From the NCBI RefSeq assembly GCF_008974145.1, contig NZ_BJKP01000022.1, forward strand, positions 1 to 61,262: a DNA stretch of 61,262 nt, read 5' to 3'. Origin of the DNA: Microcystis aeruginosa NIES-4325. GTDB taxonomy: Bacteria; Cyanobacteriota; Cyanobacteriia; Cyanobacteriales; Microcystaceae. Shown piece by piece: positions 2,493 through 9,871 of this stretch (the first letter of the stretch is position 1; the number at the start of each line of letters is the position of its first letter). A model generated the notes under the pieces. The model was not told where the DNA came from. It worked only from the letters and a program-made list of their open reading frames with translations, and did no database searches. The position numbers and the translations under genes are program-made.

Positions 2493-3581
2493 TTACCCCA
2501 AAGCAGACCAAACCTCTAACTTACTGACCACGCGACGAATCACCTCATCGGTAAACTCACTCATGGTCATTTGGCCCCCTAAATCGGGCGTTTTTTTGCC
2601 CTCGTGAATAGTTTCAAAGACACTTTCATAAATTGCCCGAGAAGCCTTGCGTGCTTCGCTGGTTTCGATATAACCTAACAAAGCTGCCGAGGCTAAAATC
2701 ATCGCCATGGGATTAGCGATATTTTTGCCCTCTAAAGCGGGGGCCGTGCCGTGGGGAGCTTCTGCCATAATAGTTTTAACTGCTAATGTCTTCTCATCAA
2801 ATCCCAAAACTAAACTTTCGGCCCCAGCAATACTGCCATAGAGTTGCAAGACAAAATCGGATAATAAATCGCCATCGCGATTAAGGGACGGAATCACCAA
2901 AGCTTCGCCGTCGGTTTGTAAAAGTAAGGCAAAAGTTGCATCAATTAACAGGGGTTGATAACGCACTTCTGGATGTCTTTGGGCTGCTGCGTCTAATTCC
3001 TCTTTAAACATCCCTTCGTAGGTGGCACTAACGGTGAATTTTGGGCCGCCAAATACCCGCGCCCCGGTTTTTTTGGCCTGTTGAAAGGTAAACTCGGCCA
3101 CAGCGCGACTGGTAGCCCTAGAAATACGCGAGGTGCGATAGGCAATTTCATCGCTGGTGGCAGTGGTTTCTCGCCATTCTTTGGCCCCGTAGGCATCGTC
3201 AACGGCCATGCGGACAATTGCAATGGGAGAATAAACGCCCCCAATCGGACGAATACCGGGGATACGGCGACCGATGCGGAGAATTACCTGAGAATTCATT
3301 GCTTCTCTTAAAATAGCGTTAGGACTGCCCACATCTCCTTTAATTTCTGGGGTAATAGTGGCAGCTTTCAGGGCTAATCCGGTTTTGAGAGTCGCTTCGG
3401 CAGCCTCATGAACCACTTGATTGTTACTCTGGCGACGTTGGGCTAAACTAAGATCAAAATCGGCAAAGTTAAGCGGTTGACGAATTATCGAGGGTTGTAA
3501 TACTCTCAGGGCTTCTAGTAATAGTTCTTCTCCAGTTTGGTCGCCGTGCATGACCACAATGGTGGGGATATTTTCAGCCAT
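2493..3581 (-). CDS. Isocitrate/isopropylmalate dehydrogenase family protein
   Basis: 362 aa, the usual length for bacterial NAD(P)-dependent beta-decarboxylating dehydrogenases. Seen: an N-terminal GDQTGEE that corresponds to the GDGIG start of the family; the substrate-binding arginine region (LRIGRRIPGIRPIGG, about residues 99-115); a metal-binding segment (NRDGDLLSDF) that keeps the aspartates; and the C-terminal HGTAPALEGKNIANPMA, which corresponds to the nucleotide-binding HGTAP...ANP block. Known: members oxidise and decarboxylate isocitrate, 3-isopropylmalate, tartrate or homoisocitrate. The arginine block is not a standard leuB or icd version, so I leave the substrate open. It stands alone on the minus strand. 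Confidence 0.85.
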   Translation of the reverse strand: MAENIPTIVVMHGDQTGEELLLEALRVLQPSIIRQPLNFADFDLSLAQRRQSNNQVVHEAAEATLKTGLALKAATITPEIKGDVGSPNAILREAMNSQVILRIGRRIPGIRPIGGVYSPIAIVRMAVDDAYGAKEWRETTATSDEIAYRTSRISRATSRAVAEFTFQQAKKTGARVFGGPKFTVSATYEGMFKEELDAAAQRHPEVRYQPLLIDATFALLLQTDGEALVIPSLNRDGDLLSDFVLQLYGSIAGAESLVLGFDEKTLAVKTIMAEAPHGTAPALEGKNIANPMAMILASAALLGYIETSEARKASRAIYESVFETIHEGKKTPDLGGQMTMSEFTDEVIRRVVSKLEVWSALG

Positions 3582-5497: not shown

Positions 5498-7261
5498 ATG
5501 GCAGAAGAAACGGCGAAAATCAAGCTTTATCGGAAAACCTATCAACTTCCCCAACTAAATCGCCCCGATTTATTAGTTTTGCAGGATCAGATTCAAGAAA
5601 GACAGCAACTGATTAAAACCGGAAAACGGGTTCGCAATACATGGTTAGGATTGAGTAAAAAAGAAGAACCCCTCAATTTCGAGGAAACTTTTCAAGAATT
5701 AGAAAGATTAGTCGGGGACTATAACCAGTTAATCAGATTTCTCACCGACCATAAGGATGAATACCGGCGGTTTTTCCAGTCACTGACCGAGGAAATCAAG
5801 GAGGCAGTGGCGGTTAAATGCCAGAAATTGGCAGAAACAGAGCGAAAACGCCAATCTTTGGAGAATAGCATCGGCTCGGCCGACCTGCGAGATACCCTGA
5901 GACTACAGAAACAGCAGATTTTCCGCACCGTGATTCTCGTTGGTCGCGCCAGCTTGCTCATGCTCAAGAAAATCGACCTAATCAGCGAAAGTATCCAGAA
6001 ATTAGCCGAAGATCAGGATACACAAAAACAGGTTTTCTCGAAAATGATCGGCGAGTTGAACGGGTACAAACAAGTGTATCAGTTGCAGCTGGAGTTAGAT
6101 AGTCTGGAACAAGAAGCGATCGAAATGGCCAAAGTAGCCATTAATCTAGAACAATACCTAAAACCAATTATCGGACAGTTTCAAGGCTTGATCGATCGAG
6201 TAGTGACCATTGACGGGGAACTTTCCCGCAGTGTCAGCGAAGTGGAATCCCTCGTCCAGAACATTCTTAGTTCCGAATCGGCCGTATCTTTCCGCAAAAA
6301 CGAGAATCTATCGGCTAGTTTGCTCAATTTCCTCGTCACCAGCGAAGAAAAGCGCGGCCGTTTAGCGATCGCATTAGAGCGAGCCGAGCAGGAAGGATGG
6401 CAATGGACGGAAGTGGAAATACCCGACGAGGAAATCGAACTCGAAACCGCCATTCAACGCATCAACAACCATGTAATCGAGAGAGTTGGGAATTTTATCA
6501 CCTCCGTCGTCGGTGATTCTCCTATTCCTCAAACTTCATTTACCGAAAACCTACCCAATGGGATAACACTGGAGATGGTGAGCTTACCAGCAGGTGAATT
6601 TCTTATGGGATCTCCTGACAGTGATTCTCATGCTCAAAGTAGAGAAAAGCCTCAACACCAAGTTCAAGTCAACAGTTTTGCGATCGGGAAATATCCGGTG
6701 ACTCAGGCACAATATGAAGCGGTAATGGGAACCAATCCCTCTCGGTTTAAAAATAATCGGCAAAATCCAGTAGAAAATGTTAGTTGGAATGACGCTCAAG
6801 CCTTTTGTAAGAAATTGAGTCAAATAACTGGGAAAACCTATCGCCTACCGACGGAAGCGGAATGGGAATATGCTTGTCGTGCGGGGACTACTACTCGCTA
6901 TTATTTCGGTGATGATGCCGATCAGTTAGAAGATTACGCTTGGCATAAAGGAAATTCTCAGGATAAAACTCATCCTGTGGGACAGAAAAAGCCCAATGCT
7001 TGGGGACTGTATGACATGAGTGGCAATGTTTGGGAGTGGTGCGAGGACAATTGGCACGATAACTATATCGGAGCGCCAAAGGATGGATCGGCTTGGTTTA
7101 TCAATAATGATAATCGTTCTCAGTTTCCTAAGTGTCTGCGGGGCGGTTCTTGGTTCATCGATCCAAATGTCTGCCGTTCCGCTTCCCGCTACCGGGACAT
7201 CCCCGACGACGGCTACAGCAGCGGCGGTTTTCGGGTTGCGTGTGTCTCCCTAGGACTTTAA
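5498..7261 (+). CDS. Coiled-coil protein with C-terminal FGE-like C-type lectin domain; putative DGR variable protein
   Basis: 587 aa. Residues 1-340 are helical and charged, predicted coiled coil, without a signal peptide or membrane helix; I do not recognise that part. From about residue 350 an FGE/sulfatase-modifying-factor fold begins (MVSLPAGEFLMGSP, then YPVTQAQYEAVMG, YRLPTEAEWEYACRAGT, GNVWEWCEDNW). The end runs from RGGSW (codons from 7139) to GGFRVA. The cysteine pair expected of a catalytic FGE is absent, so this is likely a ligand-binding fold. Codons at 7154-7225 show the pattern expected if a template of AAC/AAT codons had been mutated only at adenines: ttc, atc, gat, aat, gtc, tcc, tac, gac, atc, gac, tac, agc, agc. 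That is the hallmark of DGR target proteins. The VR is also richer in C-ending codons than the preceding segment. Confidence 0.85.
   Translation: MAEETAKIKLYRKTYQLPQLNRPDLLVLQDQIQERQQLIKTGKRVRNTWLGLSKKEEPLNFEETFQELERLVGDYNQLIRFLTDHKDEYRRFFQSLTEEIKEAVAVKCQKLAETERKRQSLENSIGSADLRDTLRLQKQQIFRTVILVGRASLLMLKKIDLISESIQKLAEDQDTQKQVFSKMIGELNGYKQVYQLQLELDSLEQEAIEMAKVAINLEQYLKPIIGQFQGLIDRVVTIDGELSRSVSEVESLVQNILSSESAVSFRKNENLSASLLNFLVTSEEKRGRLAIALERAEQEGWQWTEVEIPDEEIELETAIQRINNHVIERVGNFITSVVGDSPIPQTSFTENLPNGITLEMVSLPAGEFLMGSPDSDSHAQSREKPQHQVQVNSFAIGKYPVTQAQYEAVMGTNPSRFKNNRQNPVENVSWNDAQAFCKKLSQITGKTYRLPTEAEWEYACRAGTTTRYYFGDDADQLEDYAWHKGNSQDKTHPVGQKKPNAWGLYDMSGNVWEWCEDNWHDNYIGAPKDGSAWFINNDNRSQFPKCLRGGSWFIDPNVCRSASRYRDIPDDGYSSGGFRVACVSLGL
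7154..7240 (+). other. Candidate DGR variable region (VR) and IMH-like 3' end
   Basis: At the invariant positions of a DGR-type lectin repeat (SW, P, C-R-S-A, R, R, P-D, G-F-R-V) the residues are kept. At the positions where such proteins usually have template-encoded Asn, the codons are of the form NNC (eleven) or NNT (two). An 11-bp direct repeat TGTCTCCCTAG occurs at 7243-7253, right behind the VR, and again at 7290-7300. I find no template repeat or reverse transcriptase in the window, so any active DGR would have to act in trans. Confidence 0.6.
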
Positions 7262-7296
7262 CCCTCTGTTCTTTTGCTCTTTTGCCCTTTGTCTCC

Positions 7297-7640
7297 CTAG
7301 AAAGTGAATACGGGGTGAAATTATTCCATCGCGTCGGTCGTCATATCGAGATCACGGAAATAGGACGTTTACTGCAATTAGAAGCGCAACGCATTCTTAC
7401 TCAGATAACTTTGACAGAAAGGGGACTGGCGGAATTTAACGACTTGCAACGGGGAGAACTACAATTAGGATCGAGTTTGACTATTGGTAACTATTGGCTG
7501 CCAGCAAAAATTAGCGATTTTCAGTAGCGCTATCCGGCAATTAAGATCAACTGCACCCTAGCTAATACGGAAGAAATCTGTCTGGGTAGGGCTAACGGTT
7601 CTAAGATAACTCGACCGACTTCTCGGCAACAAAAAGCGTT
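7297..7640 (+). pseudogene. Remnant of a LysR-type transcriptional regulator
   Basis: The plus-strand frame reads as the second half of a LysR winged-helix domain and linker: YGVKLFHRVGRHIEITEIG, then LTERGLAEFNDLQRGEL, LGSSLTIGNYWLP, and after an in-frame TAG (7525-7527) RYPAIKINCTLANTEEI. The beginning of the helix-turn-helix is missing, and after about 7590 the similarity stops. No start codon or full effector domain remains. The 5' break lies exactly at the second copy of the TGTCTCCCTAG repeat, which suggests recombination joined it to the end of the preceding gene. Confidence 0.8.
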
Positions 7641-8009
7641 AGATTGATTAGGGGTTTCTTGAATTTGTACCCAGTAATGGGGCAGCAGAAATTCTCTTAA
7701 TCCCTGCTACAGCACAGGTTATGGCTTTTTGTCAACGGGAAATTCCAGTAATAGAGACTACTTTGGGGTTGCTGTGTGAGGGTTGAAACTGTGGTGAAGA
7801 TGTCGAAGACGATTTGAGGAACGCTGTTCAACGTGATGAAGGCCATGAAAATTGCCTAGCTAACTTGGCAAGCAAGCCTCTCAGGGCAACCTATACAAAA
7901 AAGACCGATCAAGCTAGACTCGTAAAAAGATAACTCCATCTAGAAGGCTTACCCTAGACTGGAAAGAACGTCGGAAAAATCTCGTCAGAAATAGGAGTCA
8001 ATCGAGTTT
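7641..8009 (+). other. Leader region before ado, with an unidentified gene fragment
   Basis: Around 7671-7786 one plus-strand frame reads AAEILLIPATAQVMAFCQRE and ends in TTLGLLCEG before a stop. This looks like the tail of a broken gene that I cannot name. The rest, up to the ATG at 8010, should hold the ado promoter. I see no strong sigma-70 boxes or riboswitch. Confidence 0.35.
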
Positions 8010-8705
8010 ATGCCAGAGCTTGCTGTACCATTAGAGCTTGATTTCACTAGCGAAACCTATAAATCAGCCTATAGTCGCATTAATGCCATCGTTATTGAAG
8101 GCGAATACGAGGCCAATAGCAATTATATTCAATTAGGAGAAATCCTCGCCGATAACAAAGAGGAGTTACACCGTCTGGCAAAAATGGAAAACCGTCACAT
8201 GAAAGGTTTTCAAGCTTGCGGCCAAAATTTGCAAATCACTCCTGACATGGATTATGCCAAAGAATTCTTTTCCTCTCTGCACAATAACTTCCAAATTGCC
8301 TACGCAGAAGGTAAGGTTGTCACCTGTTTATTAATCCAATCTTTGATTATCGAAGCTTTTGCGATCGCAGCCTATAATATTTATATTCCTGTTGCTGATC
8401 CCTTTGCCCGTAAAATTACTGAAGGCGTAGTTAAAGACGAATATTTACATCTCAATTTTGGCGAAGAATGGCTAAAAGCGAACTTTGAAACTGCTAAAGA
8501 GGAATTAGAAGCGGCAAATCGCGCTAATCTGCCCATTGTCTGGAGAATGCTCAATCAAGTCGAGGATGATGCTCGCGTCCTCGGGATGGAAAAAGAGGCC
8601 CTCGTGGAAGACTTCATGATTAGCTACGGGGAAGCTTTAAGCAATATTGGTTTCAGCACCCGTGATATCATGCGGATGTCTGCCTACGGATTAACTGCTG
8701 TCTAA
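8010..8705 (+). CDS. ado: Aldehyde deformylating oxygenase (alkane synthesis)
   Basis: 231 aa, exactly the cyanobacterial length. All six di-iron ligands of the ferritin-like four-helix bundle are in place: Glu32, Glu60, His63, Glu115, Glu144 and His147. Known: it converts C16/C18 fatty aldehydes with O2 and ferredoxin-derived electrons to C15/C17 alkanes plus formate, in the cytoplasm and at membranes. The substrate-producing reductase is the next gene. The two are separated by 146 bp containing a clear terminator, so they can be transcribed separately. Confidence in identity is very high. Confidence 0.97.
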
Positions 8706-8739
8706 AGCTTGAGCGTCTAGATTTCTTTTTTCCCCTGCT

Positions 8740-8766
8740 GCCGCTCAACACAGAGCGGCTCTTTTG
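8740..8766 (+). terminator. Rho-independent terminator between ado and aar
   Basis: GCCGCTC (8740-8746) and GAGCGGC (8753-8759) form a 7-bp GC-rich stem with a six-base loop, followed by TCTTTTG. It sits 35 bp after the ado stop, indicating that aar has its own promoter in the roughly 85 bp that follow. Confidence 0.8.
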
Positions 8767-8851
8767 TGTATTATATTTAAGAGTCTTAACGATTTCTTAG
8801 CAATATCCTAATTTTTATCTAGTGCCATCTAGTTTAACGAAAGAACAATCA

Positions 8852-9871
8852 ATGTTTGGTCTTATAGGTCATCTTACCAGTTTAGAACACGCCCAATCGG
8901 TCGCCGACGATCTAGGTTATCCTGAATATGCTAACCAGGGATTAGATTTTTGGTGTGCTGCTCCCCCGCAAATTGTCGATGATTTTCATGTCACCAGCAT
9001 CACGGGGCAAACCATCACGGGTAAATACATCGAATCCTGTTTTTTACCAGAGATGTTGTCGAATCGTTGGGTAAAGTCGGCTATTCGTAAGGTGCTAAAT
9101 GCCATGGCACTCGCTCAAAAAAGTGATATCAACATCACCGCACTCGGCGGTTTTTCTTCAATTATTTTCGAGGAATTTAATCTCAAAGATAATCGACAGG
9201 TGCGGAATATCGAGCTAGATTTTGGCCGTTTTACCACCGGTAACACCCACACCGCTTACGTCATCTCCACTCAGGTAGAAACCCTCGCTGAAAAAATGGG
9301 CATCGATTTAGCTCAATCTACCGTTGTGGTTTGCGGGGCAACCGGAGATATCGGCAGCGCCGTTTGTCGTTGGTTAAATGAAAAAACCGATACAAAAGAA
9401 CTAATCTATGTGGCACGCAATCAAGAGCGTTTACAATCTCTGCAAGAGGAGTTAGGACGCGGTAAAATTCTTCCCCTAGAGGAGGCTTTACCCCTAGCTG
9501 ATATCATTGTTTGGGTGGCTAGTATGCCTAAAGGAGTGGAAATTGATGTGGATAAACTCAAACGCCCCTGCATTATTATTGATGGTGGTTATCCGAAAAA
9601 TTTAGGCATGGTATTAAATGCCCCCGATATTTCGGTGATTAAGGGCGGCATTGTCGAGCATTCCCTCGATATTGACTGGAAAATTATGAAAATCGTTAAT
9701 ATGGATATTCCCTCTCGTCAAATGTTTGCCTGTTTTGCTGAGGCGATTTTATTAGAGTTGGAGGGTTGGCAAACTAATTTTTCTTGGGGACGCAATCAAA
9801 TTACCGTCCCTAAAATGGAACAAATCGGCGCAGCTTCCCGCAAACACGGGTTTCAACCTTTGCTATTTTAA
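8852..9871 (+). CDS. aar: Long-chain acyl-ACP reductase (alkane synthesis)
   Basis: 339 aa from the ATG at 8852, where the protein begins [15 protein letters not shown] as expected. A GTG at 8822 would add ten unsupported residues. Seen: a nucleotide-binding [10 protein letters not shown] (from residue 162) for NADPH, and the catalytic Cys294 in MFACFAEA, which falls at the family's position only with this start. Known: it reduces acyl-ACP to fatty aldehyde through a thioester on that cysteine and supplies ado. A terminator separates it from ado. The 3' end is followed by the insertion-sequence remnant region. Confidence 0.96.

Follow-up and report, generated by a model that had tools for sequence, protein, structure and literature searches.

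The last codons of a gene in Microcystis aeruginosa NIES-4325 bear the marks of adenine-directed mutagenesis, and we propose that the gene is most probably an ordinary cyanobacterial target of a diversity-generating retroelement (DGR) that was written at an earlier time, was orphaned by loss of the machinery and now holds its variable region (VR) as a fixed allele. The gene lies in a stretch of 61,262 nucleotides (the window) that constitutes contig C22 of its own assembly (G000; 3.88 Mb in 166 contigs, completeness 99.85%). In that assembly we detect no DGR reverse transcriptase (RT), Avd or template repeat; in other Microcystis genomes we find all three, with templates that differ from the window VR mainly at adenines.

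The target gene joins an N-terminal helical module to an FGE-sulfatase domain (Table 1), and sequence comparison places a VR at the 3′ end of what is predicted to be a C-type-lectin/FGE-fold gene. DNA shared with templates extends from CTGCG at position 7136 to near 7259, the last ~32 codons, with the GGSW motif encoded from 7142; the VR had been predicted at the gene end, at 7133–7258, and its position is hardly altered. By sequence, the solved structures nearest to the target protein are PvdO (5hha) and then Treponema denticola variable protein 1 (2y3c). Alignment to a bacterial FGE (6s07) places isoleucine at the first and the conserved cysteine of CRSA at the second of two cysteine positions that we take to be the FGE catalytic pair. 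The protein thus lacks the full pair of active-site cysteines of an active FGE through replacement of the first position only, and the original prediction that the pair is absent holds for the first cysteine and fails for the second.

Table 1 Coordinates of features at the target locus (positions in the window)
Feature	Positions	Strand	Remarks
Target (variable protein) gene, 587 aa	5498..7261	+	ORF; G002 ortholog directly upstream of Avd–RT–template repeat
N-terminal helical module, ~340 aa, without Pfam family	5498..6520	+	low-confidence models
FGE-sulfatase (C-type-lectin-like) domain, PF03781	6572..7240	+	residues 359–581, E 4e-58
DGR variable region (VR), homologous to G002 template repeat	7136..7259	+	
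5′ VR tract	7142..7186	+	34/34 non-adenine bases equal to class II template of NIES-2481 plasmid
3′ VR tract	7187..7237	+	32/32 non-adenine bases equal to class I template of G002
Adenine-poor 3′ end of VR, class I type	7226..7259	+	putative site of homing initiation, as in other DGRs
3′ flank common to class I target genes	7262..7297	+	ends at first arm of the terminator-like hairpin of many relatives
Fragment, LysR-like by eye	7286..7598	+	96% copy on C10; marks rearrangement junction ~7297
Dispersed repeat, MITE-like by copy number	7599..7760	.	adjoins junction

Between GGSW and GFRV, 19 of 32 codons end in C, compared with 4/29 just upstream and 27/197 in the FGE body, bearing out the contrast first noticed between the third positions of the VR and those of the codons before it. 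At the 14 codons that read AAY in the template, the window VR retains C or T as the third base in every case (14/14), with 17 of the 28 first and second bases changed, which is the NNC/NNT signature of adenine-directed mutagenesis that had been proposed from the letters alone; two non-DGR FGE tails of the same length from the same genome have non-pyrimidine third bases at 7/14 and 2/14 of these codons. Ten FGE domains were found by search in the genome, of which six, the target gene included, have tails with the NNC signature. The five further DGR-type VRs comprise two in tandem on C43 and two on C20 (loci L002/L003), all within tandem FGE domains of kinase-fused proteins, and one at C13:34528-35184. 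The first C43 VR differs from its counterpart in a congener (G001) at 1 of 102 nt.

The closest view of an intact system comes from a second congener, G002, where the ortholog is followed in order by Avd (117 aa; NF033474, 131.7 bits against a cut-off of 80), an RT (352 aa, with MGNLTSQ) and a template. The ortholog is 98% identical to the window gene over most of the N-terminal DNA, and synteny blocks connect the two loci from the Iso_dh gene (2493–3581), presumably leuB, through the target gene to 7297. Compared with the VR of its own genome, the G002 template differs at 13/33 adenines and 1/91 other bases; compared with the window VR it differs at 19/33 adenines and 8/91 others (Fisher 5e-8), and at codon positions 1 and 2 the corresponding counts are 19/31 and 0/33. 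Five of the eight non-adenine differences lie inside GGSW–GFRV, all at third codon positions and in the 5′ half.

A composite of a class II template for the 5′ tract and a class I template for the 3′ tract (Table 1) differs from the window VR at 17/30 adenines and 0/66 other bases. That all 17 changes fall at adenines, which make up 30 of the 96 sites, has P ~4e-11, a value not corrected for having chosen the templates and the breakpoint. The differences are thereby confined to template adenines, with templates taken from relatives only; since the own assembly contains no template, the donor is assigned from relatives. Among 53 tails, three of them controls, only that of the window matches class II perfectly at its 5′ end and class I perfectly at its 3′ end. 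On this comparison of bases, the window VR is a mosaic of two template families, a feature that the original prediction did not include, any more than it did the five further VRs. Such a match implies two homing events, a chimeric ancestral template or recombination. Most simply, there would have been two successive homing events, class II and later class I, in each of which an Avd–RT complex of the past would have reverse-transcribed template RNA, misreading adenines, and the VR would have been exchanged for the resulting cDNA; the class I event would have started at the VR 3′ end and stopped inside the VR. One template that was already chimeric in an ancestor, or recombination among paralogs, might have produced the same pattern.

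The machinery is absent from the whole of the own assembly. RVT_1 gave 0 matches there, as did the G002 DGR RT protein at E ≤ 1 (a query that does find its relatives in other fetched loci), Avd (NF033474) and the template pattern. The original prediction had noted that the window holds no RT or template, and this extends to the rest of the assembly; the check that it proposed, for a template repeat and a DGR RT with Avd elsewhere in the genome, came out negative in pattern, profile and protein searches, which by its own criterion counts against it, and the matching templates are those of relatives. Across 12 genomes of the genus, the own included, RVT_1 has 30 matches in ten. Four of the 30, in G002, G003, G004 and G009, are 66.7–100% identical to the G002 DGR RT over 347–352 aa, contain GNLTSQ and are each followed after ~30 bp by an AAC-rich template; the other 26 score at most 94 bits against that RT and lack GNLTSQ. 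Avd exceeds the curated cut-off (80 bits) in exactly these four genomes of the 12, with weaker, sub-cut-off matches in G004, G007, G009 and G011, and the template pattern occurs at 0 mismatches in the same four; six matches at 2 mismatches are VRs.

The targets are more widespread. The last 283 bases of the target gene have DNA matches in 12/12 genomes, a subset of which we read as VRs. VRs are present in G001 (one contig), which has no DGR-type RT, Avd over the cut-off or 0-mismatch template; in G011 (two contigs), which has no DGR-type RT or 0-mismatch template and only Avd-like matches of 24 and 28 bits; and in G010, which has no DGR-type RT, Avd match or 0-mismatch template. The VRs of G001 and G010 match the template of the M. 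aeruginosa FD4 plasmid p1FD4 at 70/70 non-adenine bases and differ from it at 16 and 21 of 29 adenines, respectively. Because relatives carry matching templates, the want of a template in the own genome most likely means that the machinery has been lost or is absent; the Avd–RT–template unit that stands behind the G002 ortholog would later have been lost from the window lineage.

With the own assembly in 166 contigs, and DGR parts present on two Microcystis plasmids, this absence may be an assembly gap, and a DGR on a plasmid or unassembled stretch might still rewrite the window VR in trans, a mode of action proposed for other DGRs (in the accessible part of PMC10907252). We consider this unlikely: the assembly is 99.85% complete, the draft assemblies G003 and G004 contain their DGRs despite comprising 220 and 240 contigs, the one-contig G001 and two-contig G011 show the same orphan state, and four VRs are nearly unchanged between species (0–1 difference in 96–102 nt, with upstream flanks 91.7–99.1% identical). 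Near-identical VRs of this kind look like fixed alleles, the state that we suggest for the window VR. One such pair, between G011 and G002, includes an RT-bearing genome, so VR sharing occurs with RT-bearing genomes too.

Sharing also bears on whether the window VR was written in its own lineage at all. Compared with 11 copies (ten full-length and one with an internal N-terminal deletion, counted over 200 residues), the window protein is 89–98% identical in the N terminus, 58–88% in the FGE body and 47–62% in the VR. The FGE bodies are 78–88% identical in ten of the 11 copies and 58% in one, and in this domain the paralogs of the own genome are no more distant than the G002 ortholog. FGE bodies are evidently exchanged among paralogs, so shared alleles may be imported ready-made, and the alleles common to several species fit a scenario in which the window VR arrived by recombination or transfer of an FGE domain from paralogs or strains and was never rewritten in the window lineage. 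Against this, the window VR peptide is absent from all other tails of the 53 distinct ones, and the class II tract starts where template homology starts, although only one diagnostic base marks it; we judge ready-made arrival to be improbable, to about the same degree as rewriting in trans, and retain an orphaned target, written before the machinery was lost, as the preferred reading.

The VRs behave as products of adenine mutagenesis. The window VR differs from that of the G002 ortholog at 22/33 adenine sites and 7/91 others, and in a cross-species comparison of six class I copies, 30/31 adenine sites vary against 15/65 others, a concentration at predicted adenines that speaks strongly for the original prediction; at the non-adenine sites, variation affects 2/33 at codon positions 1 and 2 and 13/32 at position 3. 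The alternative of a non-DGR gene with an FGE domain, shaped by ordinary divergence or by positive selection, draws on the fact that much of the GGSW..CRSA..GFR scaffold is common to all FGE domains, so that conserved codons alone prove nothing, yet it has next to no credibility given that replaced codons keep C or T third bases (14/14), that template differences are so uneven (19/33 against 8/91; 17/30 against 0/66 for the mosaic), that three non-DGR FGE tails of the own genome mismatch their best template at 8–19/36 and 11–14/26 non-adenine bases, and that DGR cassettes exist in congeners.

Behind the stop codon, the window departs from its relatives. Of 35 terminal VRs, 21 are followed, under a strict pattern, by a hairpin with a GC stem of 6 bp, a short loop and a T run (two more are one base off, by eye); none of 5 templates is. 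No such hairpin follows the window VR, where it is cut by the junction at ~7297 and the DNA fold has a z-score of +0.82, compared with −3.83 in G002; a rearrangement 36 bp past the stop would have joined the target gene to unrelated DNA. Two p1FD4 VRs match their own plasmid's template perfectly and lack a hairpin, so we make no claim that loss of the hairpin killed the window target. The repeat beside the junction is short and present in dozens of copies across the genus. Farther along, window positions 8010–9871 hold a long-chain aldehyde decarbonylase gene (PF11266) and then a dehydrogenase-like ORF; the two are presumably the pair of the cyanobacterial alkane pathway.

Some DGR loci of the genus are partly decayed, in line with loss of the machinery. 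On p1FD4, the ortholog of the window gene adjoins an annotated avd, beyond which the DNA looks transposase-like by eye; the plasmid further carries a second avd, a DGR RT, a template and a second FGE target, with an IS5 transposase gene between this other avd and the RT. Genes of TIR, MoxR ATPase and SAV_2336 types neighbour the p1FD4 DGR (L166). The FD4 chromosome has a third avd over the cut-off (G009:C1:4485773-4486084, L177) with a DGR-type VR in the same stretch, and no RT was found at this site. Plasmid p1 of NIES-2481 carries a truncated RT (residues 104–347) and a template; this RT, at L167 8001–8732, is unannotated, has its AAC-rich repeat just behind it and is probably a relic. G007 retains a 31-aa Avd remnant on a separate contig (C262, locus L173). 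A conserved stretch ~150 nt behind five templates (L134, L135, L136, L138 and L167) is possibly a spacer RNA needed for cDNA synthesis.

On the low-confidence models of the N-terminal module, any resemblance to solved helical folds (BAR, chemoreceptor, alpha-pore-forming) is tentative. The module has its own distribution. A profile built from the 11 copies matches in 27 of 291 genomes of the order, ten of the 27 being Microcystis. Of the relatives scanned, one ends in GUN4 (PF05419, 124.6 bits) and two in FGE, and further relatives have GUN4-like ends by eye, defining a cyanobacterial module without a Pfam family that is fused to GUN4 or FGE (window 5498–6520; L190, L189, L193). A partial second copy, 98% identical, lies at G000:C18:20099-20559 (L125), with a similar fragment in G006:C4. 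DGR targets of cyanobacteria are reported to include GUN4-like domains in the available text of PMC7517822, and the p1FD4 neighbours are like the ternary conflict systems described in that of PMC10907252; on these grounds the target protein may be an intracellular sensor, of which the VR would now be a fixed allele. Since GUN4 proteins and DGR-diversified FGE proteins have this helical module in common, two types of sensor may signal through a shared partner.

Most reports of DGRs concern places where an RT has been detected. Eight of the 12 genus genomes carry DGR-written receptors and no DGR-type RT, so surveys based on the RT would miss them; the available part of one survey lists only group II RTs for NIES-843 (PMC8934634). 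The templates of other strains thus become a means of tracing past hypermutation, and a mosaic VR records two template families within one target. We tentatively entertain a broader picture, possible though rather doubtful at present, in which the Microcystis DGR is a split pan-genomic system: resident targets with class I or class II homing sites, present across the genus, would be visited by a transient, partly plasmid-borne Avd–RT–template unit that acts on several of them in trans, in some cases with two templates successively rewriting a single VR. Once the unit is lost, mosaic receptors would remain fixed and pass from species to species as alleles. The kind of DGR target is already known; what is new is the orphan state across much of the genus, the match to templates from other strains and the mosaic made from two templates. 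Within the accessible literature on Microcystis and FGE, nothing treats Microcystis DGR targets, supplements and subscription journals lying outside this scope so that a prior listing is possible, and the accessible literature on orphan DGRs is archaeal work only.

Among known systems, p1FD4 likewise has an ortholog of the window gene adjoining avd; its RT and template stand elsewhere on the plasmid, whereas the window genome gave neither. T. denticola TvpA (2y3c), presumably a DGR variable protein from its record name, is the second-closest solved structure by sequence, with a match that spans the FGE-like part only. The DGR of Bordetella phage BPP-1 also comprises Avd and an RT. It shares with the systems described here a template, a VR, adenine mutagenesis and a hairpin behind the VR; its target is that of a phage, and efficient homing there depends on the hairpin (PMC3240598, available text), whereas in the window the hairpin is cut off and a role in homing is putative. 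In Thiohalocapsa PB-PSB1, DGRs 1, 4, 5 and 7 also have incomplete loci, remote targets and a perfect non-adenine match to a distant template; the matching templates named there lie in the same genome, whereas those of the window VR lie only in other strains and their plasmids (accessible text of PMC10907252). Cyanobacterial DGR variable proteins described in the available part of PMC7517822, where Microcystis is mentioned for orthocaspases only, likewise have a C-terminal C-type-lectin VR, N-terminal signalling modules (kinases, GUN4-like) and remote targets. Nostoc sp. PCC 7120 has two DGRs, in contrast to the window genome and seven further genus genomes, which gave none; its all3226 still shows homology to a template and has no RT close by, for which removal of the machinery after selection has been suggested (PMC7517822, same portion).
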